64,000 bases of DNA from the IMG/VR virus record IMGVR_UViG_3300031787_007614, positions 124,001 through 188,000 of that record. One strand, 5' to 3'. A program made the translations under genes and the position numbers. The stretch is from a virus. Of the stretch, positions 1,513 to 38,028 are shown one piece after another (position 1 is the stretch's first letter; every line of letters begins with the position of its first letter). The notes beneath the pieces were generated by a model. That model was not told where the DNA came from and did no database searches. It was given only the letters and a program-made list of their open reading frames with translations.

Positions 1513-3092
1513 TGCGTGATCTACTCAATTTACTCGACAACATACTGACTGAAGAAGTCAACGCTCAATTTGCCCCTGAACTTGAAGGCATGAAAGACGT
1601 GATTTCTAGAAGAATCAAGGATCTTCCAGACGACCCTGCTACTGCAAAAGCTCTTAAAGAAATTGAAGATCTGCTGTCGCATATTTCACATGGTGGAAGA
1701 ATGGGATCAATCAGTAAAGAAATTGAAGCTGTGCAAGATCAAGCTGTGCAAGATGCTAAAAAAGTTCTGGCAAGACTAGCAATGAACATCATGGAAGAAG
1801 TTGGTGCCACGCCGTTGCAACGTGCTGATTTTTTCAATACCTGGAAAAGCGATCGGTTGGTCAACACCCAGGCCCTGCTGAGCAATGAAAAAGTTGACTT
1901 TCCTGTGGTATTCACTGGTTATACTGAAAATCCAGTCACAAAAGAATTTGTTGACGAAGTTATGATGATCCAGGAATTAGGCATGGGACGAGGCGAATTT
2001 GGATTGAACGTACTGAGCAAAAGTATTACTGTGGCAGGCAAAAGTTCAAAACAAGACAATGACGAGGACAGCGGATCTAAAAAGGGTGACTTACAAATCA
2101 AGTCAGGTGGTAAAGTTTACCAAGTAGAATTAAAAACTGAAATGGGTGGTGCTGCCAGATTTGGAGATCAAGAAGTTAGGCCAGCAGAAGGATTTGAAGC
2201 ATCCGCAGTGACGTTGAATAATTTTGTGAAATCTCACAAGGCATACAAAAATCTCAAACGCAAATTGTCCGGCAGCGGCATGAATTTGAACCAGGCCATA
2301 GACTTTAACAAACTTCTTTCTCCAGCAGACAGTGATAAATTCCTGGCACTGACTCAACGGTGTATATCTCTCATATTTGGCAATATCAAAGGCAGTAGAA
2401 AAGAGTATGCCACAAGATTGAAAAAAAATATAAATGGCATTATGACAGCTATCGAAACTGGCGACAGCGGATCGGCTGCACAACAATGGAGTCAGGCCAG
2501 TTTCAATTATTACATGAGCAAAAAAGAAGACGACGGCGTGCTCTATCTTAACTTGAACAGCAAAGTATTCATATACTACAATGATGCAGAACAATTACTG
2601 GCACAAGGACTGAGATTCCACGCCAGTACTCCATACATTAGTGCCACAAAAGATCCTGTTAGATCAGTGTATCCACAGATTGGAGTTCAACAAACATCAT
2701 TTGGTGGTGACGCGGCTCGACAAGGATTGACACAGTTGTCCAAAGGAAAAAATCCTATGGCAGCTTCAACATTCAATTCTGCGTTGACTGATTGGGTCAT
2801 GACATTGGCAGGCAGACGTGGCATCAACAATCAAAAGTTAATAGCGCAAATTGCCAAGTCAACCTTGAACATGATAGCTAACAAAACACCAAAAGAGCAA
2901 ATTATTCCTGCACTAGAACGCCAATTTCCACAGTTGGTTCCAAGAGGGGCCGTGCAGCCAGTGGCACCTGCTGTGGCACCTGCTGTGGCGCCTGTTGGTA
3001 GACTCACAGGTCCGGGCGTGAAAACAGCTAGAAACCCAGCACAACCTCAGGTGACTGCTGAAGTGTTGGGCAGAGAACGCAGACGTAATTAA
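1512..3092 (+). CDS. Large phage protein with possible PD-(D/E)XK nuclease motif
   Basis: 526 residues, function not established. Around residues 191-210 there is a pattern like a PD-(D/E)XK nuclease core: Asp193 in KKGDLQI, then Glu206-Leu-Lys208 in YQVELKTE. The N-terminus (1-95) is helical and charged. The C-terminal 50 residues hold a Pro/Ala linker with three near-copies of VAPA. It is transcribed divergently from clpP and its end overlaps the convergent ClpP-like gene by 4 bases. It could be a virion-associated nuclease or a structural protein. Confidence 0.6.
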
Positions 3093-3664
3093 CGAGTCAC
3101 TTGGCTGATGTGATCACAGATACCCAGCCGCAGGGCATCATCCGCACCCAAATAAACGTCATGCGGTGGCAACAGATGTTGCTTGATTTGGTCTTCGCTT
3201 AGACCTGTACAATCTATATAATGCTGTACCATGCGTTTTTGTGTGAGCTCAAACTCTTTAATTGTGGCCAATAGTTCATGATGTTTGCCATCACTGCCCC
3301 AGGCATACTGGTGACTCATGATTGACGTATTAGGAGTGAGTGTTCTGCGTCCTGGTGTTCCTGCCAAAAAGATCAACAATCCGGCACTGGCAATTTGCCC
3401 CAGCCCCACAGCTTTGATTGGAATGACCGAACTGCGCATGACATCAATCAAGGCAAATGCTGAACTCATGTCTCCACCTTCTGAGCAAATCATTAGCAAG
3501 AGTTCTTTGCGTTTTTTCTTGGCCACAAAGTTCTCGTGCAGGATCCATTCAATTATGGGTTTGATGTTATCATCATCAACCTCGCCCATAAAAACATACA
3601 TTCCAGCGTCGGCCAAGGCTTGGGTGTGAGTCTGCTCAATTTGTAGGGAGTTATCTGTGGTCAT
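3089..3664 (-). CDS. Second ClpP-type serine protease
   Basis: 191 residues, clearly in the ClpP/crotonase fold but diverged from the clpP at 873-1460. The expected triad is present: Ser93 in GLGQIASAG, His118 in SIMSHQY, Asp169 in PPHDVYL followed by a helix like that of ClpP. The Gly-rich strand SEGGD replaces the usual NSPGG. It may form a heteromeric barrel with the first ClpP, as two-ClpP systems do in some bacteria, or act as a prohead-type protease. Its start at 3664 lies behind a perfect TATAAATA element, so it is probably expressed late, unlike the first clpP. Confidence 0.85.
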   Translation of the reverse strand: MTTDNSLQIEQTHTQALADAGMYVFMGEVDDDNIKPIIEWILHENFVAKKKRKELLLMICSEGGDMSSAFALIDVMRSSVIPIKAVGLGQIASAGLLIFLAGTPGRRTLTPNTSIMSHQYAWGSDGKHHELLATIKEFELTQKRMVQHYIDCTGLSEDQIKQHLLPPHDVYLGADDALRLGICDHISQVTR

Positions 3665-3714: not shown

Positions 3715-4554
3715 TTATTGCAGGGTAATTTGTCCAACCACTGCATTAGGCTTGGCCAATGCTTCTGCTCGTTTGCGCTTGTATTCCTCATTGTCCACGT
3801 CCAGTAATTTTAGTTCACCTTGTGTGGTGCTTACTACACTAGGAGCCGGTTTTGGTTCCGTTTCCACTTTTACAGGTTCAATTCGACTTTGCGGAACCAA
3901 GCTACGTTCAAGATTGGCATCAGTATCTTGCTGAGTTTTGCGCTCAACTGCTTCGTTACGATCCATGTTTTGTTCAGCGGCCCGACTGCGGATTTCAAGT
4001 TCGCGTGTCAACTGAGTTTGTTCTCGTCGAGTTTGAATTGTGTTTGCGGCTCCAAGGGGCAGACGCAACAACACATAGACCTTGTAGTACTGCCCGTCAT
4101 GGGTGGCTTGACTGTCTACCCGTTGAGCTCCACTCAACTCACCATTGGCATTCTTGCGAGTGACCTGCTGGAAGTTTTCAACCAGAGCTTGGCCACGATC
4201 AGATCTAAAGTTATTGGTCTGTGTGGTAATACGAGCATACATCTGCTCAATCAACTTGCGTTCAGCTGCCATACGAGCTTTGTCGTAGGCCATTTGTTCG
4301 TCTGTGCTGACTGCTGTACCAGCCGCAAAGGTCATCTCTGCGGTATCTTCAGGCAGGCGTACAAACCATTCTGGCGCACGGGGTATCACACGCTGAGGCT
4401 GGGCTGGCATGGCATACGGATGTACCGGGGCTTGATACACTTGTGGTGCTGGTTGTGCTACCACCTGTGGCACGGGCACTTCGGCTTTTTGAGCACTGGC
4501 ACAAGCCACAAGACCGGCACTGATTGCCACAACAGAAAGTTTAACGAGTTTCAT
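3715..4554 (-). CDS. Lipoprotein with LPP20-like domain
   Basis: 279 residues with a lipoprotein signal peptide and lipobox (GLVAC). The start at 4554 is taken because the sequence before it (GAAAGGTGTGT) gives a ribosome site. After a Pro/Gln-rich linker, about residues 60-160 match the LPP20 type (FAAGTAVSTDEQMAYDKAR, a long helix, then YYKVYVLLRLPL). The remainder is charged coiled coil. It is probably anchored in the outer membrane facing the periplasm. It is the last of five minus-strand genes, mostly lipoproteins, and has its own promoter at 4587-4615. Confidence 0.7.
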   Translation of the reverse strand: MKLVKLSVVAISAGLVACASAQKAEVPVPQVVAQPAPQVYQAPVHPYAMPAQPQRVIPRAPEWFVRLPEDTAEMTFAAGTAVSTDEQMAYDKARMAAERKLIEQMYARITTQTNNFRSDRGQALVENFQQVTRKNANGELSGAQRVDSQATHDGQYYKVYVLLRLPLGAANTIQTRREQTQLTRELEIRSRAAEQNMDRNEAVERKTQQDTDANLERSLVPQSRIEPVKVETEPKPAPSVVSTTQGELKLLDVDNEEYKRKRAEALAKPNAVVGQITLQ

Positions 4555-4586
4555 ACACACCTTTCAGGTTAGTTAACGGATAAAGC

Positions 4587-4615
4587 ATTGTAGCAGATTG
4601 ATTAAAATTTGTCAA
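4587..4615 (-). promoter_or_regulatory. Sigma70-type promoter for the LPP20-like gene
   Basis: TTGACA, 17 bp, TACAAT on the minus strand with TG before the -10. It overlaps the 3' end of the preceding gene. Predicted +1 at about 4580. Confidence 0.75.
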
Positions 4616-5162
4616 CCACTATCCACTTTGCATCTTGCATTTGGCAAATGATTCCTTGTACCACAGCAATGTCTTGTGCTTGGAATTCAGTATCCAAAAA
4701 CCAACGGCACCGAGCGCCGTTGTGCCAAAACTCTCTATTGCGGTCTGGATGCGGTCTAAACTGGCTTACCAGGCCCACTGTGCCCACTGTGGTCTTTCGA
4801 ATTGTTTGGTGTTCGGGTCTATCCGAACACACCACAACGGATTCTGTAGCTACAGACGTTTGTCCGCTTCGACTTTGCACTTCTGCTTCTGCTCGAGTTA
4901 GTGCAATATTGCATGCTGACTGTTCGGATTGAGAAAGATCAAAAGACTGGTCACCGTGAGCAGTAAGCCACTGGTTTCCAATCCTTGCACGGAAACTCAC
5001 AATGCATCGTTTCTTTCCATTAATTTCTGGAGTTACAGTCTGTGTCAACGCAGATCTCTCAAGTATCTGCGCACGACCATTAGTGGCTGTTTTGCTTTGT
5101 AAAACGCATTCACCGGCTGCTACTGCCGCAGGTAACATGAGAGCAATGACTAGTTTTTTCAT
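4602..5162 (-). CDS. Secreted Cys-containing protein of the lipoprotein operon
   Basis: 186 residues starting MKKLVIALML with a cleavable signal peptide (AVAAG region). The mature part has about seven Cys, so disulphides in the periplasm are likely. Family unknown. The start at 5162 is chosen because it overlaps the stop of the upstream gene (ATGA) and begins a proper signal peptide; the ATG at 5192 would spoil it. It may act with the three neighbouring lipoproteins on the envelope. Confidence 0.65.
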   Translation of the reverse strand: MKKLVIALMLPAAVAAGECVLQSKTATNGRAQILERSALTQTVTPEINGKKRCIVSFRARIGNQWLTAHGDQSFDLSQSEQSACNIALTRAEAEVQSRSGQTSVATESVVVCSDRPEHQTIRKTTVGTVGLVSQFRPHPDRNREFWHNGARCRWFLDTEFQAQDIAVVQGIICQMQDAKWIVVDKF

Positions 5163-5515
5163 GAGCAGTGTTTTAAATGTTGCAGATTCCAATTTATCTG
5201 TTTGTTTATGGCACCAGATGCAATTTCTTGTCTGCGTTGATAGCCGTCTGGGTCAGTTATTTGTGTCCAAAAATTGCCAATGTTTCCTAGTCCAGCAAAC
5301 AGCATCTCATCTTCTGATTGCCTCATGCTTTGCAACATCGCAATCTGTTGTTCTTTGATACGACAGTTGGGCTGGAAAAAATTTAGATCACGCTCGGACA
5401 TGGGCATGCGACTGACATTGGTAACGGCGCACCCACTACACAGGCTGACAATTGTAACGCAGAGTCCAAAGACGGTGGCGAATTTGCGATCGCTGACGTG
5501 CATAATCTTGCTCAC
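5159..5515 (-). CDS. Small lipoprotein
   Basis: 118 residues with a lipoprotein signal and lipobox (SLCSGC). A second in-frame ATG (MHVSDRK, 5503) is an equally good start. The mature part is Gln/Asn-rich and helical. Overlaps of 80 bases with the gene before it and 4 bases with the one after show one operon. Function unknown. Confidence 0.6.
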   Translation of the reverse strand: MSKIMHVSDRKFATVFGLCVTIVSLCSGCAVTNVSRMPMSERDLNFFQPNCRIKEQQIAMLQSMRQSEDEMLFAGLGNIGNFWTQITDPDGYQRRQEIASGAINKQINWNLQHLKHCS

Positions 5516-5687
5516 TTTGAAATGATTGACGAGGAATTAAATCTTGACTTTCGATCCACCTGGCAATGGCAGACCTATTGGCACAGTCATCTGGCATGAT
5601 GGCCACATCTATTGGCATGGGTCTAGGTGCTGATGCACACCCTATCAATGTGATCAATAGCAAAGGTGCCAGATGTTTAGTGTTCAT
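5436..5687 (-). CDS. Small lipoprotein
   Basis: 83 residues with an N-terminal lipoprotein signal and clear lipobox (LIGC, Cys17). The mature part is short with two Cys and Arg/Gln-rich helices. The ATG at 5687 overlaps the end of the upstream 50-residue gene. Paired nested lipoproteins recall Rz/Rz1 spanins, but this gene lacks the Pro-rich Rz1 look and no inner-membrane Rz partner is evident, so that role is only a possibility. Confidence 0.6.
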   Translation of the reverse strand: MNTKHLAPLLLITLIGCASAPRPMPIDVAIMPDDCANRSAIARWIESQDLIPRQSFQSEQDYARQRSQIRHRLWTLRYNCQPV

Positions 5688-6294: not shown

Positions 6295-6567
6295 TTACTT
6301 TTTAGAAGTTGCTGTGTAAGCCTTCATGATGCCTTCGCCAAATTTCACATAGTCAAATTTGGTGGTTTCTTGCACGGCTTTGACAGTTTCGCTGGCAACA
6401 GTGGTTGCGGCGTCTGTGGTAGCTTTGAATGCTTTCTTGGTGTATTCGGCTTGATTGTCAATGAACTTGATCATTGCGTCTTTTACCAATTCGTTTGTGA
6501 CGAAAGTGTTAACCCAAGTTCTTTTCCCGGTTTGTACGGTGTCGATGAATGCGTCTGCTGTAAACAT
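6295..6567 (-). CDS. Phasin-like protein
   Basis: 90 residues resembling the phasin family, the amphipathic helical proteins that coat polyhydroxyalkanoate granules. The sequence is almost all helix-forming with a heptad-like Ala/Val/Thr pattern (about residues 40-75, ATTVASETVKAVQ) and no Cys. It is shorter than most bacterial phasins (about 110-190 residues). It stands alone with its own promoter (6629-6658), AAGGAG and a strong terminator, so it should be well expressed. It could redirect carbon storage or act as a small chaperone. A different four-helix protein cannot be excluded. Confidence 0.6.
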   Translation of the reverse strand: MFTADAFIDTVQTGKRTWVNTFVTNELVKDAMIKFIDNQAEYTKKAFKATTDAATTVASETVKAVQETTKFDYVKFGEGIMKAYTATSKK

Positions 6568-7002: not shown

Positions 7003-7024
7003 ACTCGCGTTATATTATCATAGA

Positions 7025-7054
7025 AGCCCCGTGTAAATACTATATGGGGCTTTT
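7025..7054 (+). terminator. Terminator with a late-promoter motif inside its loop
   Basis: AGCCCC (7025-7030) pairs with GGGGCT (7046-7051), followed by a short T-tract. The loop contains TAAATAC (7034-7040), the late-promoter core, so the element can stop transcription from 6733-7002 and start the curli operon. Confidence 0.6.
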
Positions 7055-7056
7055 CT

Positions 7057-7497
7057 ATGAAAACAACAATAACAACATTAGCCTTGATGCTGGTTACAGC
7101 TGGAGCCACCGCCACTGAACTAGTACATCAATTTAATTCGCCGTCGTTCAGTGGTATCGGTTACAGTAGTCACGTCCTTACAATCGAACAACTAGAGGCA
7201 ACACGCCGTCAGAAACTACGAGAAGAAGAAGCAAGCAGGATAGCCAAAGCCGAGCTTGCTGCCAAACAAACCAATATAGCTAAATTTCTAGTCAACGTAG
7301 AAAGTCGCATCTACGCTCAGTTGAGCAAACAGTTGGCAGACTCGCTGTTCAGCGGTGGGGGCACCACAGGCAGCATGGATTTCCAAGGCACCAACATCAG
7401 TTGGGTCAAAACTTCTACTGATGTAACCATGACCATTCTAGAAAGCAATGGCAATCGCACAGAGATCACTGTGCCACTAGCGAGTTTTGCATTTTGA
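7057..7497 (+). CDS. csgF: CsgF-like curli assembly factor
   Basis: 146 residues. A signal peptide (residues 1-20) is followed by the family signature ATELVHQFNSPSFSG, which matches the start of mature CsgF, the part that inserts into the CsgG channel. A Gln/Arg/Glu-rich helix and a beta-rich C-terminus follow. Length is close to E. coli CsgF (138). In bacteria CsgF sits at the cell surface on the CsgG pore and couples curlin nucleation to secretion. It is the first gene of the operon csgF-csgG-curlin-FecR, with a TGATG overlap to csgG. Confidence 0.85.
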   Translation: MKTTITTLALMLVTAGATATELVHQFNSPSFSGIGYSSHVLTIEQLEATRRQKLREEEASRIAKAELAAKQTNIAKFLVNVESRIYAQLSKQLADSLFSGGGTTGSMDFQGTNISWVKTSTDVTMTILESNGNRTEITVPLASFAF

Positions 7498-8321
7498 TGA
7501 AAGCACTGTTTTTATCATTGCTGTTGGCTGTGTCTGGGTGTGCCAGTTTGGATCAAACTCAATTTGATGTACAGCCACCTCAATTGGTGCCACGACAAAA
7601 TTTGTTGGCTGTGTTGCCCGAGTTAGATGGTCCAAGAATACCTGTTGCTGTATATGGATTCATGGACAAGACTGGTCAGAAAAAAAACAACGACAAGCTG
7701 GCGTTATTTTCTACAGCGGTAACACAAGGTGCTGAAGTGTTTTTGATCAAGGCCTTGCAAGACACCCCAAACTGGTTCACAGTGGTTGAACGTGTAGGCC
7801 TGGACAACTTGATCAAAGAGCGTCAACTGATTCGCAATCAACGTGAAGTGTACGAAGGCAAAGATGCCAAGCCGCTCAAGCCTTTGTTGGTAGCTGGACT
7901 CATGATTGAAGGTGGCATCATTGGTTATGACACCAACATAACGTCTGGTGGTCGAGGAGCCAGAGTGCTAGGCATTGGTGCCAGTACTCAATATCGTGTG
8001 GACGAGATTGTGATATCCATGCGAGTGATTTCAGTCAACACTGGAGAAGTGTTGCTGAATACGGCTGTGAGCAAGACGGTGTTTAGCACAGCTCACAATC
8101 AAGGTGTTCTCAAATTTGTTGACCTTGGCACAACCAGTGTTGAACTTGAGAACGGGGCTGCTATTAACGAGCCCACCACATACGCTGTTCGAATAGCCAT
8201 CGAGCAAGCGGTGTACGAAATGATCCAAGAAGGAGCAAAACGGAAACTTTGGTCATACAAAAAGGGCACAAGCCCAAGGAGTGCGGATGAGGATAGTAAC
8301 TTGCCCACAAAACAAAAATGA
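7497..8321 (+). CDS. csgG: CsgG-like outer-membrane curli secretion channel
   Basis: 274 residues with a lipoprotein signal and lipobox (VSGC), then the CsgG fold: RIPVAVYGFMDKTGQ, NWFTVVERVGLDNLIKERQ and a C-terminal helix EQAVYEMIQEG. Length matches E. coli CsgG (277). CsgG forms a nine-fold outer-membrane pore. The two membrane-hairpin regions are present with Gly/Ser-rich sequence. The ATG at 7497 overlaps the csgF stop. Its stop overlaps the curlin start (ATGA). Confidence 0.93.
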   Translation: MKALFLSLLLAVSGCASLDQTQFDVQPPQLVPRQNLLAVLPELDGPRIPVAVYGFMDKTGQKKNNDKLALFSTAVTQGAEVFLIKALQDTPNWFTVVERVGLDNLIKERQLIRNQREVYEGKDAKPLKPLLVAGLMIEGGIIGYDTNITSGGRGARVLGIGASTQYRVDEIVISMRVISVNTGEVLLNTAVSKTVFSTAHNQGVLKFVDLGTTSVELENGAAINEPTTYAVRIAIEQAVYEMIQEGAKRKLWSYKKGTSPRSADEDSNLPTKQK

Positions 8322-8944
8322 AAATAACAAGATCTCTCAAAGGGACAATATTTGCATTGAGCATGATGGCTTTATCGCATGTTCAAGCTTCAAATGAAAT
8401 TTACATAGAGCAAGTTGGTGATAATGCCACAGTGACTTTAAAACAAGCAGGCAGCAACAATACCATTGGCTCTGCCCTAGCACCGGCCTTTATTGGTGGC
8501 GGCCAAAACGTAGTTTACGTTGAACAATCTGGCAGTAGCAATCAACTGGCCATGTTGGTCAACGGCGCTGGCACTAATGTGACGTTAACAATCACAGGCG
8601 ACAGCAACCAACAGACCATCACATGCGGAACCAGCATCAGCGCCAGCTGTAGCGGATCTGCAATCACGCATACCATAACAGGTGACAACAATGATGTGCA
8701 AAGTATCCTAGGTACCAATGGTGGAGCGCATACCAGTAACATCACAGTGCTAGGTGACTACAACCATGTGACTCATAGCAGTTCAGGATCAGGCGCCAAC
8801 TCAGCCACAATCAATGTTACTGGGTCAGGCTCAGGTGCTACCCCAAATGCAATCACTGTATCACAGAGTGGTATGAATACTCAAAGTGCAACCGTCAATG
8901 CTTCGGGCAATAACATTAATATCAGTATTATTCAGTCTGACTAA
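8318..8944 (+). CDS. Curlin-like repeat protein (CsgA/CsgB type)
   Basis: 208 residues with a signal peptide (to about residue 24). The mature part is made of irregular repeats of about 20-40 residues with the curlin pattern of Gln/Asn/Gly (IYIEQVGDNATVTLKQAG, VVYVEQSGSSNQLAM, ITGDSNQQTIT, ITVSQSGMNTQSATV), rich in Ser, Thr, Asn and Gly and low in charge. Two Cys (CGTSISASC) are unusual for curlin. It is a plausible substrate of the CsgG/CsgF pore and may form amyloid. It is longer than E. coli CsgA (151). Confidence 0.85.
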   Translation: MKITRSLKGTIFALSMMALSHVQASNEIYIEQVGDNATVTLKQAGSNNTIGSALAPAFIGGGQNVVYVEQSGSSNQLAMLVNGAGTNVTLTITGDSNQQTITCGTSISASCSGSAITHTITGDNNDVQSILGTNGGAHTSNITVLGDYNHVTHSSSGSGANSATINVTGSGSGATPNAITVSQSGMNTQSATVNASGNNINISIIQSD

Positions 8945-9974
8945 TACTTGGGCTGGAGTAGGCAAGGTCACTGAACAAACTGGCCCTACTGAAATAGTAC
9001 GGGCTCGAAAAAGCATATCCAGTGCTGTAAATACCGCAGTGGAAATGAATGACACCATTGTCACAGCCCGATCCCGAGCTGAACTTACATTTGATGATGC
9101 TACCAAAGTCAAAATTACTGAACAGTCAAAGCTGATAATTGATGACTTTGTGTATGACCCAAAGTCAGGCACAGGCAAGTTGGCCATGAAAGTGGCTCTG
9201 GGCACGGCTAGATATGCATCAGGACAGATTGCCAAGAACTCTCCACAACAGGTTGCAGTCAGCACACCCACAGCTTCTATTGCTGTGCGTGGCACAGACT
9301 TTTCAATGACCGTGGACGAGCTTGGGCGCAGTCTAATAATGCTGTTGCCCAGTTGTGATGACAAAACATGTGTAACAGGTGCTATTGAAGTATCCAATCA
9401 ATCTGGTAGCATACTAATGACACAGGCCTATCAAGCTACTTTAGTTTCCACAGTAGATACACCGCCAACCAGACCAGTTGTGTTGACCATTGATCAGGCC
9501 AACATCAACAACATGCTGATCATCAGCCGGCCCCGAGAAATTAGCGAAGAACATAGAGACAACAAAAAAGATGTTCGAACAGCGTTAGACGTTAACTTTC
9601 TTGATCGAGACTTTTTAAAACCTGCAGATTTAGACAATCGGTTGGATGCATTCAACCGACTGGATCGCAATGAACTAGAAGATGAGCTGTTGCCCAATGT
9701 GTTGGATGCCGTAAATGCAGCCTTGTCGGCCACGCAAGAAGCCATGTCAACTACACTGAGCATGCTGCCAGGCTATGACGCTGGCTCAGGATTAAAATGG
9801 CGGGTAGATGATCAAGAACAGCTGGGTTTAACCAGATACAGCACTCATATTTTTGAACTAACTGTTCCCAAAGAGCAAGGGGCAATACTGGATCTCCAAC
9901 AGGACGGCATTCCTGTATATCAAAAAATCAACACAGGTGGAACCACCACAATTACCATTGTCCAAAGTCAATAA
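8898..9974 (+). CDS. FecR-domain periplasmic protein
   Basis: 358 residues from the ATG at 8898 (a GTG at 8886 is possible). The signal peptide ends near TWA. Residues about 20-150 form a FecR domain: VGKVTEQTG, a short strand region, LTFDDATKVKITEQSKL, and the closing VSTPTASIAVRGTDF typical of the family. The C-terminal half is helical with Asp/Leu/Asn-rich repeats (LDNRLDAFNRLDR). FecR-domain proteins with curlin and CHASE2 cyclases occur together in bacteria. The start lies inside the curlin gene (46-base overlap), so translation is coupled. Confidence 0.85.
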   Translation: MLRAITLISVLFSLTNTWAGVGKVTEQTGPTEIVRARKSISSAVNTAVEMNDTIVTARSRAELTFDDATKVKITEQSKLIIDDFVYDPKSGTGKLAMKVALGTARYASGQIAKNSPQQVAVSTPTASIAVRGTDFSMTVDELGRSLIMLLPSCDDKTCVTGAIEVSNQSGSILMTQAYQATLVSTVDTPPTRPVVLTIDQANINNMLIISRPREISEEHRDNKKDVRTALDVNFLDRDFLKPADLDNRLDAFNRLDRNELEDELLPNVLDAVNAALSATQEAMSTTLSMLPGYDAGSGLKWRVDDQEQLGLTRYSTHIFELTVPKEQGAILDLQQDGIPVYQKINTGGTTTITIVQSQ

Positions 9975-9978
9975 ATAC
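9971..9978 (+). promoter_or_regulatory. Late-type promoter motif
   Basis: ATAAATAC ahead of the gene at 10002, overlapping the stop region of the FecR gene. AAGGAG follows before the ATG. Confidence 0.5.
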
Positions 9979-10001
9979 TACTATAAAAATAAGGAGCCAA
10001 C

Positions 10002-10283
10002 ATGGGGGACATCTTCAAGTTAATTGGTGATCTAGGATTTCCAATAGCAGTGGCATTAGCAGGTGGATACTTTGTTTATCTCACAATCAAACTGTTGTTA
10101 GCCGGTGTACTAAGTGCAATCAAAGGCATGGCTGGCATCATCACAGCACTCGACAATCGCGTAAAGACCATGAATCATGATGTGGTTCGCATTGATACCA
10201 TTGTGTCAAATGCGCTGGGCCTCAAACCCGATGTGGATCGTATTGCACGAGCAGATGGTAAGAATGATGCAAGGAGAGATTGA
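10002..10283 (+). CDS. Small membrane protein, holin-like topology
   Basis: 93 residues with one long hydrophobic segment (about residues 9-40, GFPIAVALAGGYFVYLTIKLL), a short helix, and a C-terminal helical region ending in a charged tail (DGKNDARRD). It is similar in layout to the gene at 10465-10806 (GFPIVMAVGMGYIIKY), so the two are probably paralogues. Holin or membrane-anchor roles are possible but unproven. Good AAGGAG at 9991-9996. Confidence 0.6.
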   Translation: MGDIFKLIGDLGFPIAVALAGGYFVYLTIKLLLAGVLSAIKGMAGIITALDNRVKTMNHDVVRIDTIVSNALGLKPDVDRIARADGKNDARRD

Positions 10284-10468
10284 TGTTACATCTTGATTAC
10301 AACTGGGACCTGGGCCCTGGATATATTGTGCCAGACAAAGAATTAGACACTGAAAGACTGGGCTGGAAGCCTGGACAGTTCTGGCAGATGATTGAAGTCA
10401 ATGGAAAAATAAGATTACACCAGGTGGATCCCATGGTCCAATTTGTATTGGAAGGATCTGTCAAATGA
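10283..10468 (+). CDS. Conserved small phage protein
   Basis: 61 residues (MLHLDYNWDLGPGYIVPDKE). It begins at the TGATG overlap with the upstream gene (ATG at 10283, AAGGAG ahead) and ends with a 4-base overlap into the next gene. Trp-rich, no signal or membrane span. It looks like a compact soluble fold placed between two related membrane genes. Function unknown. Confidence 0.6.
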   Translation: MLHLDYNWDLGPGYIVPDKELDTERLGWKPGQFWQMIEVNGKIRLHQVDPMVQFVLEGSVK

Positions 10469-10806
10469 GCGAAGTAGTTGAACTAGTAAACAAATATGGC
10501 TTTCCTATTGTGATGGCTGTGGGCATGGGCTACATCATCAAGTATGTTTGGGAATGGGCCACAAAAGAAGTCAAACCTGTTATCAATGATGCCAACACTG
10601 TGTTGATTGCTCTCATTGACCGCGTTAGAATGTTGGACAATGATCTTATTCGTTTGAATCAAAAGGTCAACACAGTGTTGCACCTACGTGGCAAGATGAT
10701 TGAAAGTGATCGTGTGATGGAAGCACACAAAGTAGATCATGAAGCTGAAAAAACGTTCAAGAGTGTAGTGCAAGATAAAACTACTACCAAGCCAGGCGGA
10801 AGTTAA
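10465..10806 (+). CDS. Small membrane protein, paralogue of 10002-10283
   Basis: 113 residues with a single N-terminal hydrophobic span (about residues 12-32), then a long helical, coiled-coil-like region (VLIALIDRVRMLDNDLIRLNQKVNTVL) and a charged tail. The shared N-terminus with 10002-10283 points to a duplication. One-span proteins with a cytoplasmic coil occur in phage lysis and membrane-stress cassettes. Function unknown. Confidence 0.6.
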   Translation: MSEVVELVNKYGFPIVMAVGMGYIIKYVWEWATKEVKPVINDANTVLIALIDRVRMLDNDLIRLNQKVNTVLHLRGKMIESDRVMEAHKVDHEAEKTFKSVVQDKTTTKPGGS

Positions 10807-10814
10807 GTACTTTA

Positions 10815-11519
10815 ATGACAGAACTAATAGCAACCCTGGTAATGACACACATTACCATAGTTTGCGTCACTTTGTATTTGCATCGTGGACAAGCTCATCG
10901 AAGTATAGAATTTCATCCCATACTCGAACACTTTATGCGAGCCTGGTTATGGCTCACAACAGGCATGGTTACCAAGCAATGGGTGGCTATACATCGCAAG
11001 CATCATAGGCACAGTGATCAACCAGGTGATCCACACAGCCCACATGTGTATGGCATCAAGAGAGTTTTCTTTAAAGGAGCAGGATTATATCATGAAGCAT
11101 CAAAAGATAAAATCATGGTTGACGCATACGGTGTTGGTACTCCTGCTGATTGGGTGGAGCTTCACTTATACACTCCTCACAGTAGACTTGGCATTGGCAT
11201 TCTCTTTGTGCTCAACACCTTGATATTTGGTTGGTGGGGCATCTTAATCTGGGGCATACAAATGATCTGGATTCCATTCTGGGCTGCAGGGGTAATCAAC
11301 GGTCTAGGTCACTGGTGGGGATATAGAAATGGTGAAACTAAAGATCACAGCAGAAACATTGTTCCTTGGGATATTATTGTTGGTGGGGAATGCCTGCATA
11401 ATAACCATCATCTGGATCCTGCTAACGCTCGACTGAGTCGTCGTTGGTTTGAGTTTGATGCAGGATGGATGTGGCTCACAGTGTTTAGAGCACTGTATCT
11501 TGCCAAATTAAGAACTTAA
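10815..11519 (+). CDS. Acyl-lipid / acyl-CoA desaturase family
   Basis: 234 residues, an integral-membrane di-iron desaturase. The three His boxes are present: HRGQAH (about 23-28), HRKHH (about 60-64) and HNNHH (about 195-199). Four hydrophobic spans lie in the usual places. Length is shorter than stearoyl-CoA desaturases (about 300), typical of phage and bacterial short forms. It should introduce double bonds into host acyl chains. A second member of the family is at 38000-38755, so the phage carries two. Confidence 0.88.
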   Translation: MTELIATLVMTHITIVCVTLYLHRGQAHRSIEFHPILEHFMRAWLWLTTGMVTKQWVAIHRKHHRHSDQPGDPHSPHVYGIKRVFFKGAGLYHEASKDKIMVDAYGVGTPADWVELHLYTPHSRLGIGILFVLNTLIFGWWGILIWGIQMIWIPFWAAGVINGLGHWWGYRNGETKDHSRNIVPWDIIVGGECLHNNHHLDPANARLSRRWFEFDAGWMWLTVFRALYLAKLRT

Positions 11520-11520
11520 A

Positions 11521-13569
11521 TTACTTTTCATGGGCAACAAACTCACCGTTCCAGTTGTCGCCTAGGTCCTGTTGCTTCATGAACGCACAACGTTCAATCC
11601 ACATTTTATAGTACTTGTCCATTTGCCCACCAAACTTGCCGTGCAATTCTTCACACAAGATAACAGCCGCATCAAACTGTTTTTCTTTGTATAAGGCATG
11701 CATTTTGTTGTGCGTAGCACGTTCTTTAGTATAATCCTCACCACGAGTGCGTAGCACGGTGTAGATCAAGTCTGCTACTGTTTTGCCTTTGGGTTGTAAG
11801 TTATCTAATAGCAAGTAGAAGAAGTCATCTCGAGTTCTGTTGTATGTCTCAGCACCAACAATGGCCAACACACCATAAGCCTTACAACGTGCTTCTAGTC
11901 GTGCGGCTGTTGACACCATGTCACCCAAGATGTCATAACTGTGTCGTTCTGTTGAACCCATCTCACCAATAAAGCCGACGCCTGTGTTACAGCCCCAACC
12001 CATTGCAGCTGGTGGTAAGCCCTGAGCTTCCATCTCTTTAGTGTAAGCATCTACAGCATCCAACATTTCTAATCCTACTTGAACAATAGTTCTAGCATGG
12101 TTAGGATCTTCAATTGGAGCACCGTGTATGTGCATACTCGCATCACCCACATACTTTATGACCATGCCTTTGTTGTCTAGTATAGGGCGGCTGATGCTGT
12201 CCATGTAGCCGTTCATGTACCGGCCAAGTCCAGCAACATCATCGCCGTAGTGTTCCCCAATTGGTGTAAAACCACGTAAGTCACTGAACATGACACTTAC
12301 GTCTTTACGCACGCCACGCTTGATCAAGTCTGGATCTTTTTGCAGTAGCTCTACAACTTCCTTGGAACAGTAGCCTGCAAATTGTTTTTTGATTGCTTGT
12401 TTTTGGAGGAACTCTGAGACAAACTTGACTCCGTAGGCGTGTAGCCCGACAAGGACAATGCCCGCGACTGGGAGGGTAACGTCAAATAACCAAAGGTAAT
12501 TGACAAAACTAAAGTAACTGCCATACGCAAGTACAGCGCATATTCCAACCAACGAGATAAGACCAACATACACCCACCTTGTAAGAATTAATAATAACAC
12601 GCCTGCTGCCAAGATAACAAGTATTTCAACTCCATCAGCGTAGTCTGGACGCACAATATTGGTGCCTGCTGCCACAGTTTCTAGTACACTGGCTTGCAAG
12701 TAGTGCGGATAGACTTCTCCTCTTGCAGTTGCGACGGGGTTGTTGAGCCCGCGAGCTGTGAGTCCGACAATGACAATTCCACCTTGGAAGTCCTCTGGCA
12801 AATCAGCCAGGGAGTATTCTTGCGGTTGGGATGACCAATCCACCCAAACTCTACCGTAACTGTCTGTTGGAATTTTTCCAAACTGTGGAATTCTAACTGC
12901 TTCAACGCTTCCGTCATTGACTCGGACCTGGAAGCTGGGATCTCCGGCAAGGACTCTAAGCGTTTCAAGACTGATGGAGGGATAGACTTGTTCTCCAACT
13001 GTGACGACTTGGGGGACTCGGCGTACAACGCCGTCGATTTCAGGCAAAGTGTTAACAATGCCAATGCCGCTTGCTGTTTCATTTAATGACCTCACGTTGG
13101 GTTGAATACTTTGATACGCTATGCCCGGCAAACCAGTGCCTATTACAGACACACCAGGTCTGTAAGGTGCGTACTTGGACACAGTGTTTTCGTTGGTGGC
13201 CATGTGTGGCAACACTACTAAACTCTCTTTGAGTTGCCGAGACAGTGCAGAGTCTTGCCCAAAACGATCCACATCGGGCATGAATATGTTAAACACAATC
13301 ACACCTGCATTGCGATCTTCTAACTGACGAATAATGTCAGCATACTGATTTCTGGGAAAAGGAAACTGCCCACGTTGAGCAATAGCACGGTCGTCAATGT
13401 TGACCACATGAATTTGCTCACTTGTTGTAACAGCACGATCAGTGATCAGCATGTCAAAGTAACGTAGTCTTATACTTTCTACAAAGCTAGGATCAGCAAT
13501 TCTTATACTTAAAATAAGTGCCAATGTAATTAGAGCAGTCCATGGACTTAGTAGAATTTTTTTCAACAT
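11521..13569 (-). CDS. CHASE2-domain membrane adenylate cyclase
   Basis: 682 residues. One N-terminal membrane span (about 11-22), a periplasmic CHASE2 sensor (about 35-305, with VHVVNIDDRAIAQRGQFPFPR-type start and the DGVVRRVPQV strand), three spans (about 312-385) and a class III cyclase domain (about 422-615). Metal Asp430 (FSDLRGFT) and Asp476 (KYVGDAS) are present. Lys472 and Asp546 (SYDILGD) are the pair that selects ATP, and Arg557 is kept. The catalytic Asn of the V-N-x-A-x-R motif is Ser553, so activity may be weak. Start ATG at 13569. It lies convergent to the curli-FecR cluster and is the likely signalling partner. Confidence 0.9.
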   Translation of the reverse strand: MLKKILLSPWTALITLALILSIRIADPSFVESIRLRYFDMLITDRAVTTSEQIHVVNIDDRAIAQRGQFPFPRNQYADIIRQLEDRNAGVIVFNIFMPDVDRFGQDSALSRQLKESLVVLPHMATNENTVSKYAPYRPGVSVIGTGLPGIAYQSIQPNVRSLNETASGIGIVNTLPEIDGVVRRVPQVVTVGEQVYPSISLETLRVLAGDPSFQVRVNDGSVEAVRIPQFGKIPTDSYGRVWVDWSSQPQEYSLADLPEDFQGGIVIVGLTARGLNNPVATARGEVYPHYLQASVLETVAAGTNIVRPDYADGVEILVILAAGVLLLILTRWVYVGLISLVGICAVLAYGSYFSFVNYLWLFDVTLPVAGIVLVGLHAYGVKFVSEFLQKQAIKKQFAGYCSKEVVELLQKDPDLIKRGVRKDVSVMFSDLRGFTPIGEHYGDDVAGLGRYMNGYMDSISRPILDNKGMVIKYVGDASMHIHGAPIEDPNHARTIVQVGLEMLDAVDAYTKEMEAQGLPPAAMGWGCNTGVGFIGEMGSTERHSYDILGDMVSTAARLEARCKAYGVLAIVGAETYNRTRDDFFYLLLDNLQPKGKTVADLIYTVLRTRGEDYTKERATHNKMHALYKEKQFDAAVILCEELHGKFGGQMDKYYKMWIERCAFMKQQDLGDNWNGEFVAHEK

Positions 13570-13572
13570 CAA

Positions 13573-13707
13573 TTATTTATTGGGGGGGTTTGGAGCAGAT
13601 TCTTTGGCTTTTTGTTTAGCTTTTTCTGAAGCCGGGCTTGATCTGTGCGGAGTAGTGGGGCGGGGGGTCGAAGGATATCGGGGCGGTTTGTGCTTGAACC
13701 AACTCAT
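13573..13707 (-). CDS. 44-residue Pro/Lys-rich micro-protein
   Basis: Short frame MSWFKHKPPR... ending PPNK. It is Pro-, Ser- and Lys-rich, probably disordered. AAAAGGA lies before the ATG, and the stop is 3 bases upstream of the cyclase start, so it leads the cyclase gene. A late-type TAAATA motif (13574-13580) overlaps its end. Function unknown. Confidence 0.45.
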   Translation of the reverse strand: MSWFKHKPPRYPSTPRPTTPHRSSPASEKAKQKAKESAPNPPNK

Positions 13708-14083: not shown

Positions 14084-15088
14084 TTACTTAATCTGACTCC
14101 ACACACGCTCGCGAATTTGCTTGGTCAACACATCAGGCAAACTCACATAGTCCAGTTCTTCAGCCATCTTCTTGCCATTCTTGAATGACCAGTTAAAGAA
14201 CTTTAGTACTTCAGCCGATGCTTTTTTATCAGCTGGGTCCTTGTACATGATAATAAAACTAGCAGTGGTCACAGGCCACACTGTGTCGCCCTTTTGGTCC
14301 ACAATACTAATGCCCATACCTGGCACTGAGAACCAGTCAGCGCCTGCAGCCGCGGCAGCAAAAGTCAAGTCATCTGGACTGACAAATTTGCCTGACTTGT
14401 TTTGCAACTGCATGAATGTCATGTTGTTCTTTTTAACATAAGCATACTCAACATATCCAATGGCACCTTTCACACGATTCACATTGGCTGCAACACCTTC
14501 GTTGCCTTTGCCGCCCACTGATGATGCAGCCGGCCATTTTACTGCGGCACCACGGCCCACTCGGCTGGCCCATTCAGGACTGACAGTTGTGAGATAGTCT
14601 GTCCAGTTAAATGTTGTGCCTGATCCATCTGCACGATGCACTACAGTGATGTTGGCATCAGGTAACTTTTTGCCGGGATTCAACGCCGCTAATTTTGGGT
14701 CGTTCCACTTCACAATGTTGCCCATAAACACTTCTGCCATCACTGCACCTGTGATTTGCAATTCACCGGGGCGGAATCCTTCCAAGTTGATCACCGGCAC
14801 TGTGCCACCAATAACAGCAGGAAATTGCACTTGTCCTAGTCGATCCAAATCTTCACCTTTTACTGGTGCATCAGTTGCACCAAAGGCCACTGTTTTGTTG
14901 TTGATCTGGCGAATGCCGCCTGATGAACCAATTGATTGATAATTAAGTCCCACGCCAGTTTCTTTCTTGTAGGCTTCAGCCCATTTAGCGTAGATAGGAT
15001 AAGGGAAAGTTGCACCTGCCCCTGTGATGTCGGCTGCTTGTGCTGTAACCGTGAAAGCGGTCAGTAGTGTCAGTAAGTGTTTGAACAT
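14084..15088 (-). CDS. pstS: PstS phosphate-binding protein
   Basis: 334 residues, the periplasmic phosphate-binding subunit of the Pst ABC transporter. A signal peptide (to AQAAD) is followed by the family signature ITGAGATFPYPIYAKWAEAY, the phosphate loop IGSSGGIRQI, FGATDAPV and HRADGSGTTFNWTDYL. The start at 15088 has AAAGGAG ahead; the ATG at 15109 is rejected. No pstCAB genes are visible, so it should feed the host transporter. Carriage of pstS is known in marine T4-like phages. Control is probably by phosphate (Pho-box-like repeat at 15130-15147) and by a late-type CTAAATA at 15113-15119. Confidence 0.95.
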   Translation of the reverse strand: MFKHLLTLLTAFTVTAQAADITGAGATFPYPIYAKWAEAYKKETGVGLNYQSIGSSGGIRQINNKTVAFGATDAPVKGEDLDRLGQVQFPAVIGGTVPVINLEGFRPGELQITGAVMAEVFMGNIVKWNDPKLAALNPGKKLPDANITVVHRADGSGTTFNWTDYLTTVSPEWASRVGRGAAVKWPAASSVGGKGNEGVAANVNRVKGAIGYVEYAYVKKNNMTFMQLQNKSGKFVSPDDLTFAAAAAGADWFSVPGMGISIVDQKGDTVWPVTTASFIIMYKDPADKKASAEVLKFFNWSFKNGKKMAEELDYVSLPDVLTKQIRERVWSQIK

Positions 15089-15112
15089 GATTTCTCCTTT
15101 GTAGTTCACAAC

Positions 15113-21709: not shown

Positions 21710-22498
21710 ATGAAAGTTGCTTTTGACCTAATTTCTGATCTCCACATTGACACCTGGAACGAACCCTTTGACTGGACTGATCGAGCCACCAGTCCATACG
21801 CTATTGTTGCCGGTGACATTGCTGAAGATAGAAAATTGTTATCTGACGCATTGACCAATCTAAGTCGCTGTTATCAAGCTGTGTTTTTTATAGACGGCAA
21901 TGACGAGCATGCTAGATATTATCACAGTCTTAGCGACAGCTACAAAGACCTAACCAAACGCATTGCCAAAATATCTAATGTGGTTTATCTCCAGGACAAT
22001 GTGGTGGTAGTTGATGGTATTGGCATATTGGGCACCAATGGATGGTGGGGATTTGATTTTGAACTCAGCATTGATCCTACTCAAAGTTCTTTGTGGTGGC
22101 AAGAAAAAGAAAATCTCACCAGTGACATTGCTAAAAAGATATCCAGGATGGCTACCAATGATGCGGCGTACATGATAAACTCTGTGAAACGCTTGCAATC
22201 ACACAAGGATGTCAAACACATACTCATGGTCACACATACTGTGCCCTGTCAGCAGTTGATTGAGCATGACATAGATCTTGAAGGCAGCATGCGATTCAAC
22301 ATGATGGGCAACAGAGACATGATGCAGGCTATGGCAGCAGACGACGGGAAAAAGATTCATACCTGGTGTTTTGGACACTATCATGGATCAGTAGACCAAA
22401 TACGCCACGACGTGAGGTTTGTAAACAACTGTCGTGGGCGCAGTGGTTCGCCATGGTCACATCATGTGTACCATCCTCGCAGAATTGAAATTCAGTGA
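21710..22498 (+). CDS. Calcineurin-like metallophosphoesterase
   Basis: 262 residues. The di-metal motifs appear in order: ISDLHID (8-14), VAGDIAED (33-40), IDGNDEH (about 62-68; usual GNHD/E changed to GNDEH), VTHTVP (about 175-180) and CFGHYHG (about 223-229). Length fits bacterial and phage phosphodiesterases. Substrate cannot be read from sequence; nucleotides, cyclic nucleotides or phosphoproteins are all possible. If it acts on cAMP it would oppose the cyclase at 11521-13569, but that is speculation. It ends with an overlap into the convergent clpS. Confidence 0.85.
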   Translation: MKVAFDLISDLHIDTWNEPFDWTDRATSPYAIVAGDIAEDRKLLSDALTNLSRCYQAVFFIDGNDEHARYYHSLSDSYKDLTKRIAKISNVVYLQDNVVVVDGIGILGTNGWWGFDFELSIDPTQSSLWWQEKENLTSDIAKKISRMATNDAAYMINSVKRLQSHKDVKHILMVTHTVPCQQLIEHDIDLEGSMRFNMMGNRDMMQAMAADDGKKIHTWCFGHYHGSVDQIRHDVRFVNNCRGRSGSPWSHHVYHPRRIEIQ

Positions 22499-22803
22499 AC
22501 TTCTTCTGGTTCTAATTTGATTTGTAACGGATAACTTTGTGAACGAGCTTGCAAGGTAACTTCGATGCCTTTTTGTTCGGCAATCTCATAAGGTAGCACA
22601 GCAACCACAGCACTTCCAGCTTCGTGAATGTCAACTGTGATTTGTTCAGCAGATTCTGCGGTGTAATCAAAATACTCAACCAAACTACTGACCACAAATT
22701 CCATAGAGGTCTGATTGTCATTGATATAAATCACGCGAAACAACGACGGTGGTCGCACTGCTTCTTGTGTGCGAGTTCGTGATTTCGTTTCAGTTTGAGC
22801 CAT
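22492..22803 (-). CDS. clpS: ClpS adaptor protein
   Basis: 103 residues. ClpS delivers N-degron substrates to a Clp unfoldase. The core IYINDNQTSMEFVV matches E. coli VILVNDDYTPMEFVI, with Asn-Asp-Asn where bacteria have Asn-Asp-Asp; Thr, Met and the later His (DIHEAG) are kept. It lies next to hsp20, bS21 and clpX. Bacterial ClpS normally works with ClpA, and no clpA is present, so it may retarget host ClpA or serve the phage ClpX. AAGGAT precedes the start. Confidence 0.9.
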   Translation of the reverse strand: MAQTETKSRTRTQEAVRPPSLFRVIYINDNQTSMEFVVSSLVEYFDYTAESAEQITVDIHEAGSAVVAVLPYEIAEQKGIEVTLQARSQSYPLQIKLEPEEVH

Positions 22804-22820
22804 TTTTTATCCTTGTTAGC

Positions 22821-22851
22821 AGTGGCAGCACTGTGCTGCCACTGTATTTAC
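22821..22851 (-). promoter_or_regulatory. Late-type motif next to a strong hairpin, clpS leader
   Basis: TAAATAC (minus strand, 22845-22851) directly followed by the perfect hairpin AGTGGCAGCA-CAG-TGCTGCCACT (22821-22843). No T-tract follows, so this is not a simple terminator. Confidence 0.5.
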
Positions 22852-22860
22852 ACAATTATA

Positions 22861-23319
22861 TTAGTTTGTGTAGGTGATCGCAATAGTCTTTGGCTTGGCA
22901 TCTTCGGGCACTTCACGTTTCAAGTGAACGCTTAGAATACCAAGTTCAAGGTGTGCATTACTGATCTCCACATGATCAGCCAACTGAAATTCCCTACGGA
23001 AACTTCTTTCGCTGATGCCTTTGTGCAAATATTTTGTTGTAGTATCCTCATTCTCCACAGTCTCACGACTGTGCTTACCTTCAACAATCAAGAATTTTTT
23101 GTCCTTGGTTACTGTGAGGTTATCATGCCCAAAGCCAGCCACGGCCATGCTGATCATGTACTCATCTTCATTGATTTGTACAATGTCATAGGGTGGGTAG
23201 TTGGTAGAGGATTGTTGAGCACTCACACGCATGAGTTCATCAAACATGCTATCGAAACCGATACCAAATTTGGTGAGTGTGGGAATGTCGAAACTACGAA
23301 GGGTGAGAGTTTTTGTCAT
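22861..23319 (-). CDS. Small heat-shock protein, Hsp20/IbpA family
   Basis: 152 residues with an alpha-crystallin domain (about 40-135): YDIVQINEDEYMISMAVAGF, LTVTKDKKFLIVEGKH, the SFRREFQLADHVEI strand and LGILSVHLKREVPE, followed by a short C-terminal tail with the IAI anchoring motif. An ATP-independent holdase. Related small heat-shock proteins are common in aquatic T4-like phages, where they probably assist particle assembly. Good AAGGAG before the start and a hairpin leader at 23356-23379. Confidence 0.93.
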   Translation of the reverse strand: MTKTLTLRSFDIPTLTKFGIGFDSMFDELMRVSAQQSSTNYPPYDIVQINEDEYMISMAVAGFGHDNLTVTKDKKFLIVEGKHSRETVENEDTTTKYLHKGISERSFRREFQLADHVEISNAHLELGILSVHLKREVPEDAKPKTIAITYTN

Positions 23320-23355
23320 TTGTTTTCTCCTTTATATAAGCAAGATGACTTGTAA

Positions 23356-23379
23356 TGTAGCCCCACTATGGGCACTACA
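23356..23379 (-). promoter_or_regulatory. Leader hairpin of hsp20
   Basis: TGTAG/CTACA and CCC/GGG pair around an AT-rich loop, 36 bases ahead of the ATG. It does not cover the AAGGAG, so a thermometer role is not evident. Confidence 0.35.
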
Positions 23380-23406
23380 ACATTATTTATTATACACGAA
23401 GAAAAA

Positions 23407-23634
23407 CTATATTTTATTATTTAGGTCAGTTATCAAGCGGTAACTTGTCCATTCTGGATGTTCTGGATGTGGCACCCAGGTCATTGCAAACAGTGTGTAA
23501 GATTCGTCTGAATCAAATGTAACCCGCAAGGTGTATTTGAATACTTTAGTACGGTATTTGATATTGTATTTTGCTGCCCATGCACTCAGTTTGTTTCGAA
23601 CAAAGTCTGAGGACAACCGAAACTCAATGTACAT
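23407..23634 (-). CDS. Small hypothetical protein
   Basis: 75 residues (MYIEFRLSSD start), beta-rich with many aromatic residues (FKYTLRVTFD, YTLFAMTWVP). It follows the bS21 gene with a one-base stop-start overlap. Not recognised. It may be a co-translated partner of bS21. Confidence 0.55.
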   Translation of the reverse strand: MYIEFRLSSDFVRNKLSAWAAKYNIKYRTKVFKYTLRVTFDSDESYTLFAMTWVPHPEHPEWTSYRLITDLNNKI

Positions 23635-23858
23635 CAGTACAGTTTTTTAGGTAGTGCTTGCTCGGCTAGTTGTTTGCGCCAGCGATTTTTGGCAGCACTG
23701 CGTTTGAGTTTGCGAGCAGTAGTGGGCTTGATGTAGTGCTCTTTTTCACGGAGATCATTGAGTATGTTTGACGCTTGAATTTTTTTCTTGAGTTTTCTCA
23801 GCGCACGTTCAATATTGTTGTCCTGAACCAACACTGATCTACCATGTAATTTACCCAT
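23634..23858 (-). CDS. rpsU: Ribosomal protein bS21 homologue
   Basis: 74 residues, very basic. The bS21 pattern is present: V-x-x-x-N-IERALRKLKKKI (near 14-27), then LREKEHYIKPTTARKLKRSAAKNRWRKQ. bS21 sits at the 30S platform beside the anti-Shine-Dalgarno and mRNA start. Length and spacing match bacteria (about 70). Phage-encoded bS21 is known; it may exchange into host ribosomes and favour phage mRNAs, here including leaderless ones. Overlaps clpX by 8 bases. Confidence 0.93.
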   Translation of the reverse strand: MGKLHGRSVLVQDNNIERALRKLKKKIQASNILNDLREKEHYIKPTTARKLKRSAAKNRWRKQLAEQALPKKLY

Positions 23859-37837: not shown

Positions 37838-38028
37838 TACCAGTGCCTTATTGTATTTGCTATGATGAACCCACAGGTCACAACATGTATTATAACCCAA
37901 AAGGTCTTGAAGAACAAGGCCAATCGGGCTTCTCGCAAGGTTAAAATGGGCACATCAGGACGGTCATCGTCTGTGTGCCCCATTAGGTGGCCTGTGGCTC
38001 TAGCCCAAACTTTTTCTAGGCTGTTCAT
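37837..38028 (-). CDS. Small membrane protein
   Basis: 63 residues (MNSLEKVWARATGHLMGHTDDD start). Two short hydrophobic stretches with a charged linker; the C-terminal half (FFKTFWVIIHVVTCGFIIANT) is a membrane span. It overlaps the desaturase gene by 29 bases. Function unknown. Confidence 0.55.
   Translation of the reverse strand: MNSLEKVWARATGHLMGHTDDDRPDVPILTLREARLALFFKTFWVIIHVVTCGFIIANTIRHW

Follow-up and report, generated by a model that had tools for sequence, protein, structure and literature searches.

The genes of the curli module

The window analysed here is a stretch of 64,000 nucleotides, bases 124001-188000 of the IMG/VR virus record IMGVR_UViG_3300031787_007614. The whole record is 364,404 bases long and contains a gene for Gp23, the T4-type major capsid protein (E=7.2e-98), which together suggest that it is a T4-like jumbo phage, either entire or a large part of one. 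Within the window, csgF, csgG, a curlin-repeat gene and the gene of a FecR-domain protein form a single run on the plus strand (7057-9974), with overlaps of 4 to 59 bases, and a gene for a CHASE2 adenylate cyclase lies on the minus strand (11521-13572). An initial sequence-only reading of this DNA had named these five genes and described an overlapping plus-strand operon; all five were recovered in the same places, and the operon was borne out. On the same strand, the operon extends past FecR through the small membrane protein gene sm1 (10002-10283), a short ORF (sm2, 10280-10468) and a second small membrane protein gene, sm3 (10465-10806), to a fatty acid desaturase gene (10815-11519). Both sm1 and sm3, as well as a curlin-like tail on the FecR protein, had been missed.

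The csgF gene (7057-7497) encodes an outer-membrane curli accessory protein (PF10614, E=1.1e-14), and csgG (7494-8321, probable start ATG 7497) encodes an outer-membrane lipoprotein pore (PF03783, E=4.5e-52) with the lipobox LAVSGC. Residues 3-256 of CsgG align with the solved E. coli CsgG, 3x2r (E=5e-48), including the region of the pore hairpins, on which the sequence-only reading had made its case depend. The positions aligned to E. coli Y51 and N55 are Asn and Leu here, with residue numbering counted by hand. CsgF aligns weakly to the N-terminus of the solved CsgF 6l7a_J (whole-search E=0.53) and keeps the N-terminal plug motif QFxSPxFxG, in which F26, P29, F31 and G33 are invariant across 19 phage sequences. 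Because this is the motif that enters the CsgG barrel, its invariance counts against a lost CsgF-CsgG pairing in the phages. No CsgE adaptor was found among the neighbours of the module.

The curlin gene (8318-8944) is the weakest assignment of the set, since its Curlin_rpt match (E=0.0067, 16.8 bits) falls under the curated Pfam cut-off of 20.7. The protein also matches the CsgB model (E=0.0029), and its QxGxxN-type repeat positions are invariant among relatives. A predicted beta-solenoid, likewise held essential by the sequence-only reading, was obtained with AlphaFold as a regular beta-repeat fold (mean pLDDT 87.7), which was built on 18 sequences of a repeat protein and should not be over-read. 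Searched against the PDB, this model had no significant match (best E=0.05); the weak ones included the E. coli CsgA fibril and further beta-helical proteins. No second curlin was found in the whole 364-kb record. Taken from these sequence features, the curlin is the probable amyloid subunit of a phage export system.

The FecR-domain protein (8886-9974, probable start ATG 8898; PF04773, E=1.8e-10) is an exported protein. According to the alignment and the model, it opens with a signal-like segment; the FecR domain comes next, then a linker of low confidence, and the C-terminal part is rich in beta structure. Its C-terminal 50 columns can be aligned with the final 50 of the curlin profile, and both end in an ITIxQ-type strand. 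This match scored 29.0, a value reached in 0 of 60 column shuffles (all at or below 20.8), and the remaining parts of the protein did not match the curlin profile. The curlin-like tail suggests a role at the fibre or the pore rather than in iron regulation. Regulation of the latter kind, through FecR acting as an anti-sigma type factor, is ruled out by the architecture, in which the signal-like segment comes before the FecR domain, and no FecI sigma gene occurs among the annotated neighbours. The low overall quality of the FecR model (pLDDT 63) makes any contact of the protein with curlin or with CHASE2 a guess. A structural match to the 'cell surface anchoring domain' 5ix9 (TM 0.82 by target, E=0.0019), which is local and does not show what portion of the FecR query is matched, was set aside for lack of support from sequence searches.

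The cyclase (probable start ATG 13569) combines a CHASE2 sensor (PF05226, E=1.6e-37) with a class III catalytic domain (PF00211, Guanylate_cyc, E=8.1e-15). It keeps both metal-binding Asp residues and the adenine-type Lys (VSVMFSDLRGF, IKYVGDASM), as do 59 of 59 aligned phage cyclases, and the adenine-type Asp is also kept. The transition-state Asn is replaced by Ser in the window (SYDILGDMVSTAARLE) and in Melnitz; about half of the 59 phage cyclases keep the Asn, and about half have Ser. This replacement may lower cyclase activity and does not exclude it. Compared with the window, the cyclase of the sister contig L013 is 75% identical in CHASE2 and 44% in the catalytic domain, whereas that of L044 is 54% and 93% identical, respectively, and these identities indicate that sensor and catalytic domains are swapped between phages. 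That the swaps retain the metal-binding and adenine-type residues suggests selection for cyclase activity. Because no cNMP-binding domain was found across the phage record, we propose that phage cAMP would act through the host's own receptors.

The small membrane proteins sm1 and sm3 are paralogues, both matching phrog_18771 (E=5.5e-29 and E=6.2e-29) and hitting each other in phmmer. Each consists of a single hydrophobic segment and a charged tail, which is helical in sm1. When the pair was searched in Pfam for a kinase or dimerisation domain, no kinase family appeared at E values up to 5. At the N-terminal segment, sm3 and its Melnitz homologue weakly match a holin PHROG (E ~1e-4); of the two window proteins, only sm3 matches phrog_4898 (holin), over 23 residues (E=0.00012). 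For sm2, no family match rose above chance level. The desaturase (PF00487, E=7.3e-14) is an optional neighbour rather than a constant member, being present in 12 of 35 well-flanked csgG loci, and a second, similar desaturase-like ORF lies at 38000-38755 on the minus strand.

Several other genes of the window deserve mention. An envelope cluster on the minus strand (3715-5687) comprises an LPP20-like, a 17-kDa antigen-like and two small lipoprotein-like ORFs; it appears fast-changing, because it is 30-53% identical in the related contig L008 compared with 91-98% for its neighbours, and its members are possible surface or exclusion genes. Directly beyond the cyclase, a PstS-like phosphate-binding protein is encoded at 14084-15109 (minus strand). 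By eye, a small phasin-like protein, which is odd for a phage, was recognized at 6295-6567 (minus strand), two ClpP-like proteases at 873-1493 and 3089-3664 (minus strand) on either side of a 526-aa protein, and ClpS-, Hsp20- and ClpX-like ORFs at 22492-25056.

Spread, linkage and promoter motifs

Scans of IMG/VR gave 80 loci for the window's CsgG and a further 80 for sm1, many of the module loci lying in contigs of 200-372 kb; Gp23 was present in 11 of the 17 module contigs tested. We defined a well-flanked locus as a csgG with at least 9 kb on either side. CsgF, the curlin, the FecR protein and the CHASE2 cyclase each occurred in 35 of 35 such loci, a count that, like the others given for loci, includes some near-identical contigs. 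The cyclase, which the sequence-only reading had required to travel with the curli genes, is therefore linked to them throughout this set. At the same 35 loci, sm3 was found in 30 and sm1 in 26, several of the absences falling near the locus end. Seen from the 46 sm1 loci, sm3 was found in all 46 and the cyclase in 45, and sm1 can be regarded as a constant module member; sm2 belongs to part of the lineage only (30 of 46). Of 10 contigs checked, most of them with no csgG in the local stretch, 8 carry the gene elsewhere.

Three gene orders recur among the loci: (i) sm1-sm3-csgF-G-curlin-FecR-cyclase, (ii) csgF-G-curlin-FecR-cyclase facing sm3-sm1, and (iii) that of the window, csgF-G-curlin-FecR-sm1-sm3 facing the cyclase. 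The last two differ in the orientation of the cyclase/sm block, which is inverted in one relative to the other. When the window is compared with its sister L013, dS is 0.56-0.75 in the csgF-FecR block and 1.6-3.0 in sm1, sm3, the desaturase and the cyclase, which implies that the blocks recombine separately yet stay together. The dN/dS values point to purifying selection (0.06-0.12 for csgF, csgG, the curlin and FecR, 0.07-0.22 for the cyclase, and ~0.015 for sm1 in two of the comparisons). Chance association or decaying cargo was rejected because it conflicts with the linkage in 35 of 35 loci and with the low dN/dS.

In a CsgG tree of 139 sequences, the phage copies form a single branch (SH-aLRT 96) apart from the bacterial copies, with CsgG of HTVC008M and Melnitz nested inside this phage-only branch; it is a quick tree in which some long branches are unsure. 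A search for the gene order in other phages, as the sequence-only reading had advised, found it again in HTVC008M, in Melnitz-type phages and in the IMG/VR loci. Among 50,697 annotated phage records, the module is present only in the first two of these groups, and sm1/sm3 are confined to the six records with the module. A seventh CsgG match, in a 1.5-kb unverified 'Salmonella phage' contig (OR851715.1, L004), is very unlike the phage copies and possibly comes from host DNA. Short contigs assigned to bacterial MAGs (L085-L089 and L146) carry part or the whole of the phage curli module; they are probably mis-binned phage, because these short MAG pieces fall on the phage side of the CsgG tree.

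The T4-type late-promoter core TAAATA lies within 70 bases 5′ of csgF in 48 of 61 non-redundant loci (1.5 expected), 5′ of sm1 in 27 of 34 relatives (0.8 expected) and 5′ of the cyclase in 21 of 47 relatives (1.2 expected), and is mostly lacking before internal genes (csgG 1/60, curlin 0/60, FecR 2/56, sm3 3/44). In the window, 15 of 85 ORFs have the core on their 5′ side (1.9 expected), including those at 7034-7039 (plus strand, csgF), 9972-9977 (plus strand, the sm1/sm3 pair) and 13574-13579 (minus strand, the cyclase). The full T4 late consensus octamer TATAAATA is not enriched in the window (1 found, 1.66 expected); in HTVC008M, a full TATAAATA stands immediately 5′ of csgF. Cores before csgF, the sm1/sm3 pair and the cyclase, and not before internal genes, indicate that the module probably comprises three late transcription units. 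The word late is here taken from the motif itself, because the phage's own capsid gene, used as a positive control, has no TAAATA directly 5′ of it; a same-direction gene closely precedes the capsid gene, so this control is uninformative. The timing at infection assumed by the sequence-only reading is doubtful, since the cores of the three units point to late expression. At csgF, the core occupies the loop of a strong inverted repeat (about 7018-7059, fold z-score -5.6); several relatives have other arms around the same loop, and others have no such repeat.

Relation to published phage modules and bacterial systems

Csg genes in phages were reported earlier (PMC7029224), and a csg pore has been described in the methylophage Melnitz (PMC9004378). 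For pelagiphages of two families, the order csgF-csgG-curlin-FecR-(curlin)-adenylate cyclase has been published (PMC9599517), so the linkage of curli, FecR and cyclase genes is not a discovery of the present analysis. The statement in the sequence-only reading that curli genes occur in some marine T4-like phages was right. The pelagiphage type VIII system (HTVC008M and uncultivated podo- and myoviruses) has the same core order as the window, and its CsgG lies on the same phage-only branch. In contrast, the window belongs to a 364-kb jumbo record, has no second curlin, and has its sm1/sm3 pair moved behind FecR and its cyclase turned round. According to PMC9599517, histidine kinase genes always precede csgF in pelagiphages. 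In HTVC008M, the two genes that precede csgF encode small transmembrane proteins, homologues of sm1/sm3 without a kinase match, and the published 'histidine kinase' label may refer to genes of this type.

All seven families are present in Melnitz (PMC9004378), with identities of 58% for sm1, 48% for sm3, 47% for CsgG and 47% for the cyclase. Unlike the window, Melnitz has its cyclase on the same strand, a second curlin and a 141-kb genome. Its record (L002) annotates two curlin-repeat proteins (8845-9564 and 10623-11639), whereas PMC9004378 says that the fibre genes are missing.

Bacterial curli operons (csgBAC-csgDEFG and alphaproteobacterial variants) share CsgF, CsgG and curlins with the window. 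Around ~74 bacterial csgG loci, which mostly carry csgF and curlins, no phage-type FecR, sm1 or sm3 was found within 10 kb of csgG. Capture of a whole bacterial operon is consequently unsupported, as the FecR/sm part is in none of these bacterial csgG loci and the apparent exceptions are probably mis-binned phage. FecR-domain relatives occur in 96 of 289 alphaproteobacterial genomes, and in 7 of 20 alphaproteobacterial FecR loci a CHASE2 cyclase gene lies beside the FecR gene; none of these 20 loci had curli genes beside such a pair. Clusters of CHASE2 cyclases with FecR outer-membrane proteins have also been described in Campylobacterota (PMC9239204), and the co-occurrence of FecR and CHASE2 in bacteria, asserted by the sequence-only reading, therefore holds in both groups. 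These bacterial pairs resemble the window in that an envelope FecR-domain protein adjoins a CHASE2 class III cyclase. However, the FecR proteins of bacteria are for the most part long, RTX repeats occur in some of them, and none matched the curlin profile. As judged from sequence comparison, the phage module looks like a combination of bacterial curli genes, a bacterial FecR/CHASE2 pair and a phage-specific membrane pair.

Proposed working of the module and rival explanations

We consider it an even prospect that these genes constitute a late-expressed envelope module, in which a type VIII (curli) pore and its amyloid substrate would be coupled to a sensor linking the envelope to cAMP. The 'secretion and sensing module' of the sequence-only reading agrees with the constant linkage, the purifying selection in the tested genes and the bacterial FecR-CHASE2 pairing. 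Late in infection, CsgG, with the N-terminal plug of CsgF in its barrel, would form an outer-membrane pore, and this pore would export the curlin, which may then form amyloid on the infected cell. The exported FecR protein would hold its FecR domain on the envelope side, its curlin-like tail either capping or nucleating the fibre or reading whether the pore is busy, and it may be the extracytoplasmic partner of the cyclase's CHASE2 sensor, as in the bacterial pairs. The cyclase would convert the state of the envelope to cAMP, to be received by the host's own cAMP receptors, and sm1 and sm3 would reside in the inner membrane as required components that perhaps link the system together or set its timing. 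The sequences themselves show the gene content, the constant linkage, the purifying selection, the pattern of promoter cores, the curlin-like tail and the kept metal residues of the cyclase; amyloid formation, the FecR-CHASE2 contact, cAMP production and a benefit to the phage are what we infer here. In PMC9004378, clumping of Melnitz-infected cells was not seen, which counts against the amyloid-export reading.

The main rival to late amyloid export is lysis control, itself unlikely, in which CsgG, perhaps with holin-like sm1/sm3, produces pores in the envelope that determine or aid lysis, the curlin and cAMP being side elements. Late-type promoters would fit the timing of lysis, sm3 and its Melnitz homologue show the weak N-terminal holin match, and a pinholin-like role has been proposed for Melnitz (PMC9004378). 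However, the pore formed by CsgG lies in the outer membrane, both the CsgF plug motif and the curlin show conservation and selection, the holin match spans only ~23 residues, and HTVC008M has separately annotated endolysins. With pore, accessory protein and substrate all present and expressed late, the cell would be coated shortly before the progeny leave it, and the amyloid could then hold neighbouring cells near the lysing cell, as in an aggregation of cells or lysate termed 'sibling capture' (PMC7029224). This is quite unlikely, given that no clumping was observed for Melnitz in culture (PMC9004378) and that aggregation alone does not explain the constant cyclase and sm1/sm3.

The pore and amyloid could also mask or alter receptors on the infected cell, and the surface location of CsgG, CsgF and the curlin, as well as the envelope lipoproteins near by (3715-5687), would agree with such superinfection exclusion. 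Exclusion systems usually act early, whereas the promoters of the module are late-type, and we regard this explanation as improbable. Catabolic genes are commonly under the control of cAMP, a PstS gene lies near by (14084-15109), and the changed CsgG loop residues (Asn and Leu at E. coli Y51 and N55) may alter opening of the pore. These points would favour uptake of nutrients or macromolecules through CsgG (PMC7029224), with cAMP shifting host catabolism, but the conserved curlin, CsgF plug and FecR tail are left unexplained and pstS is near the module in few relatives, making uptake highly improbable.

Beyond the late envelope module itself, a tentative and unlikely elaboration is a secretion-gated second-messenger circuit, in which the curlin-tailed FecR protein would engage either the CsgG/CsgF pore or the amyloid as it grows and signal the state of export to the CHASE2 cyclase, and phage cAMP would steer the host as infection nears its end.

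New in comparison with published work on phage curli genes, in which we found no description of the module boundaries, the late units, the constant membrane pair or the FecR tail, are the spread of the module in jumbo contigs of up to 372 kb, the constant sm1/sm3, the probable late units and the curlin-like FecR tail; no previous account of the module from jumbo phages came up in the open-access literature. The curli genes of marine phages had no assigned use in published work, and they can now be treated as a testable system with respect to timing, export, amyloid and cAMP. If the secretion-gated circuit were true, an amyloid-coupled cAMP switch would be known from phages only, put together from two bacterial parts of separate origin and a phage-specific membrane pair.
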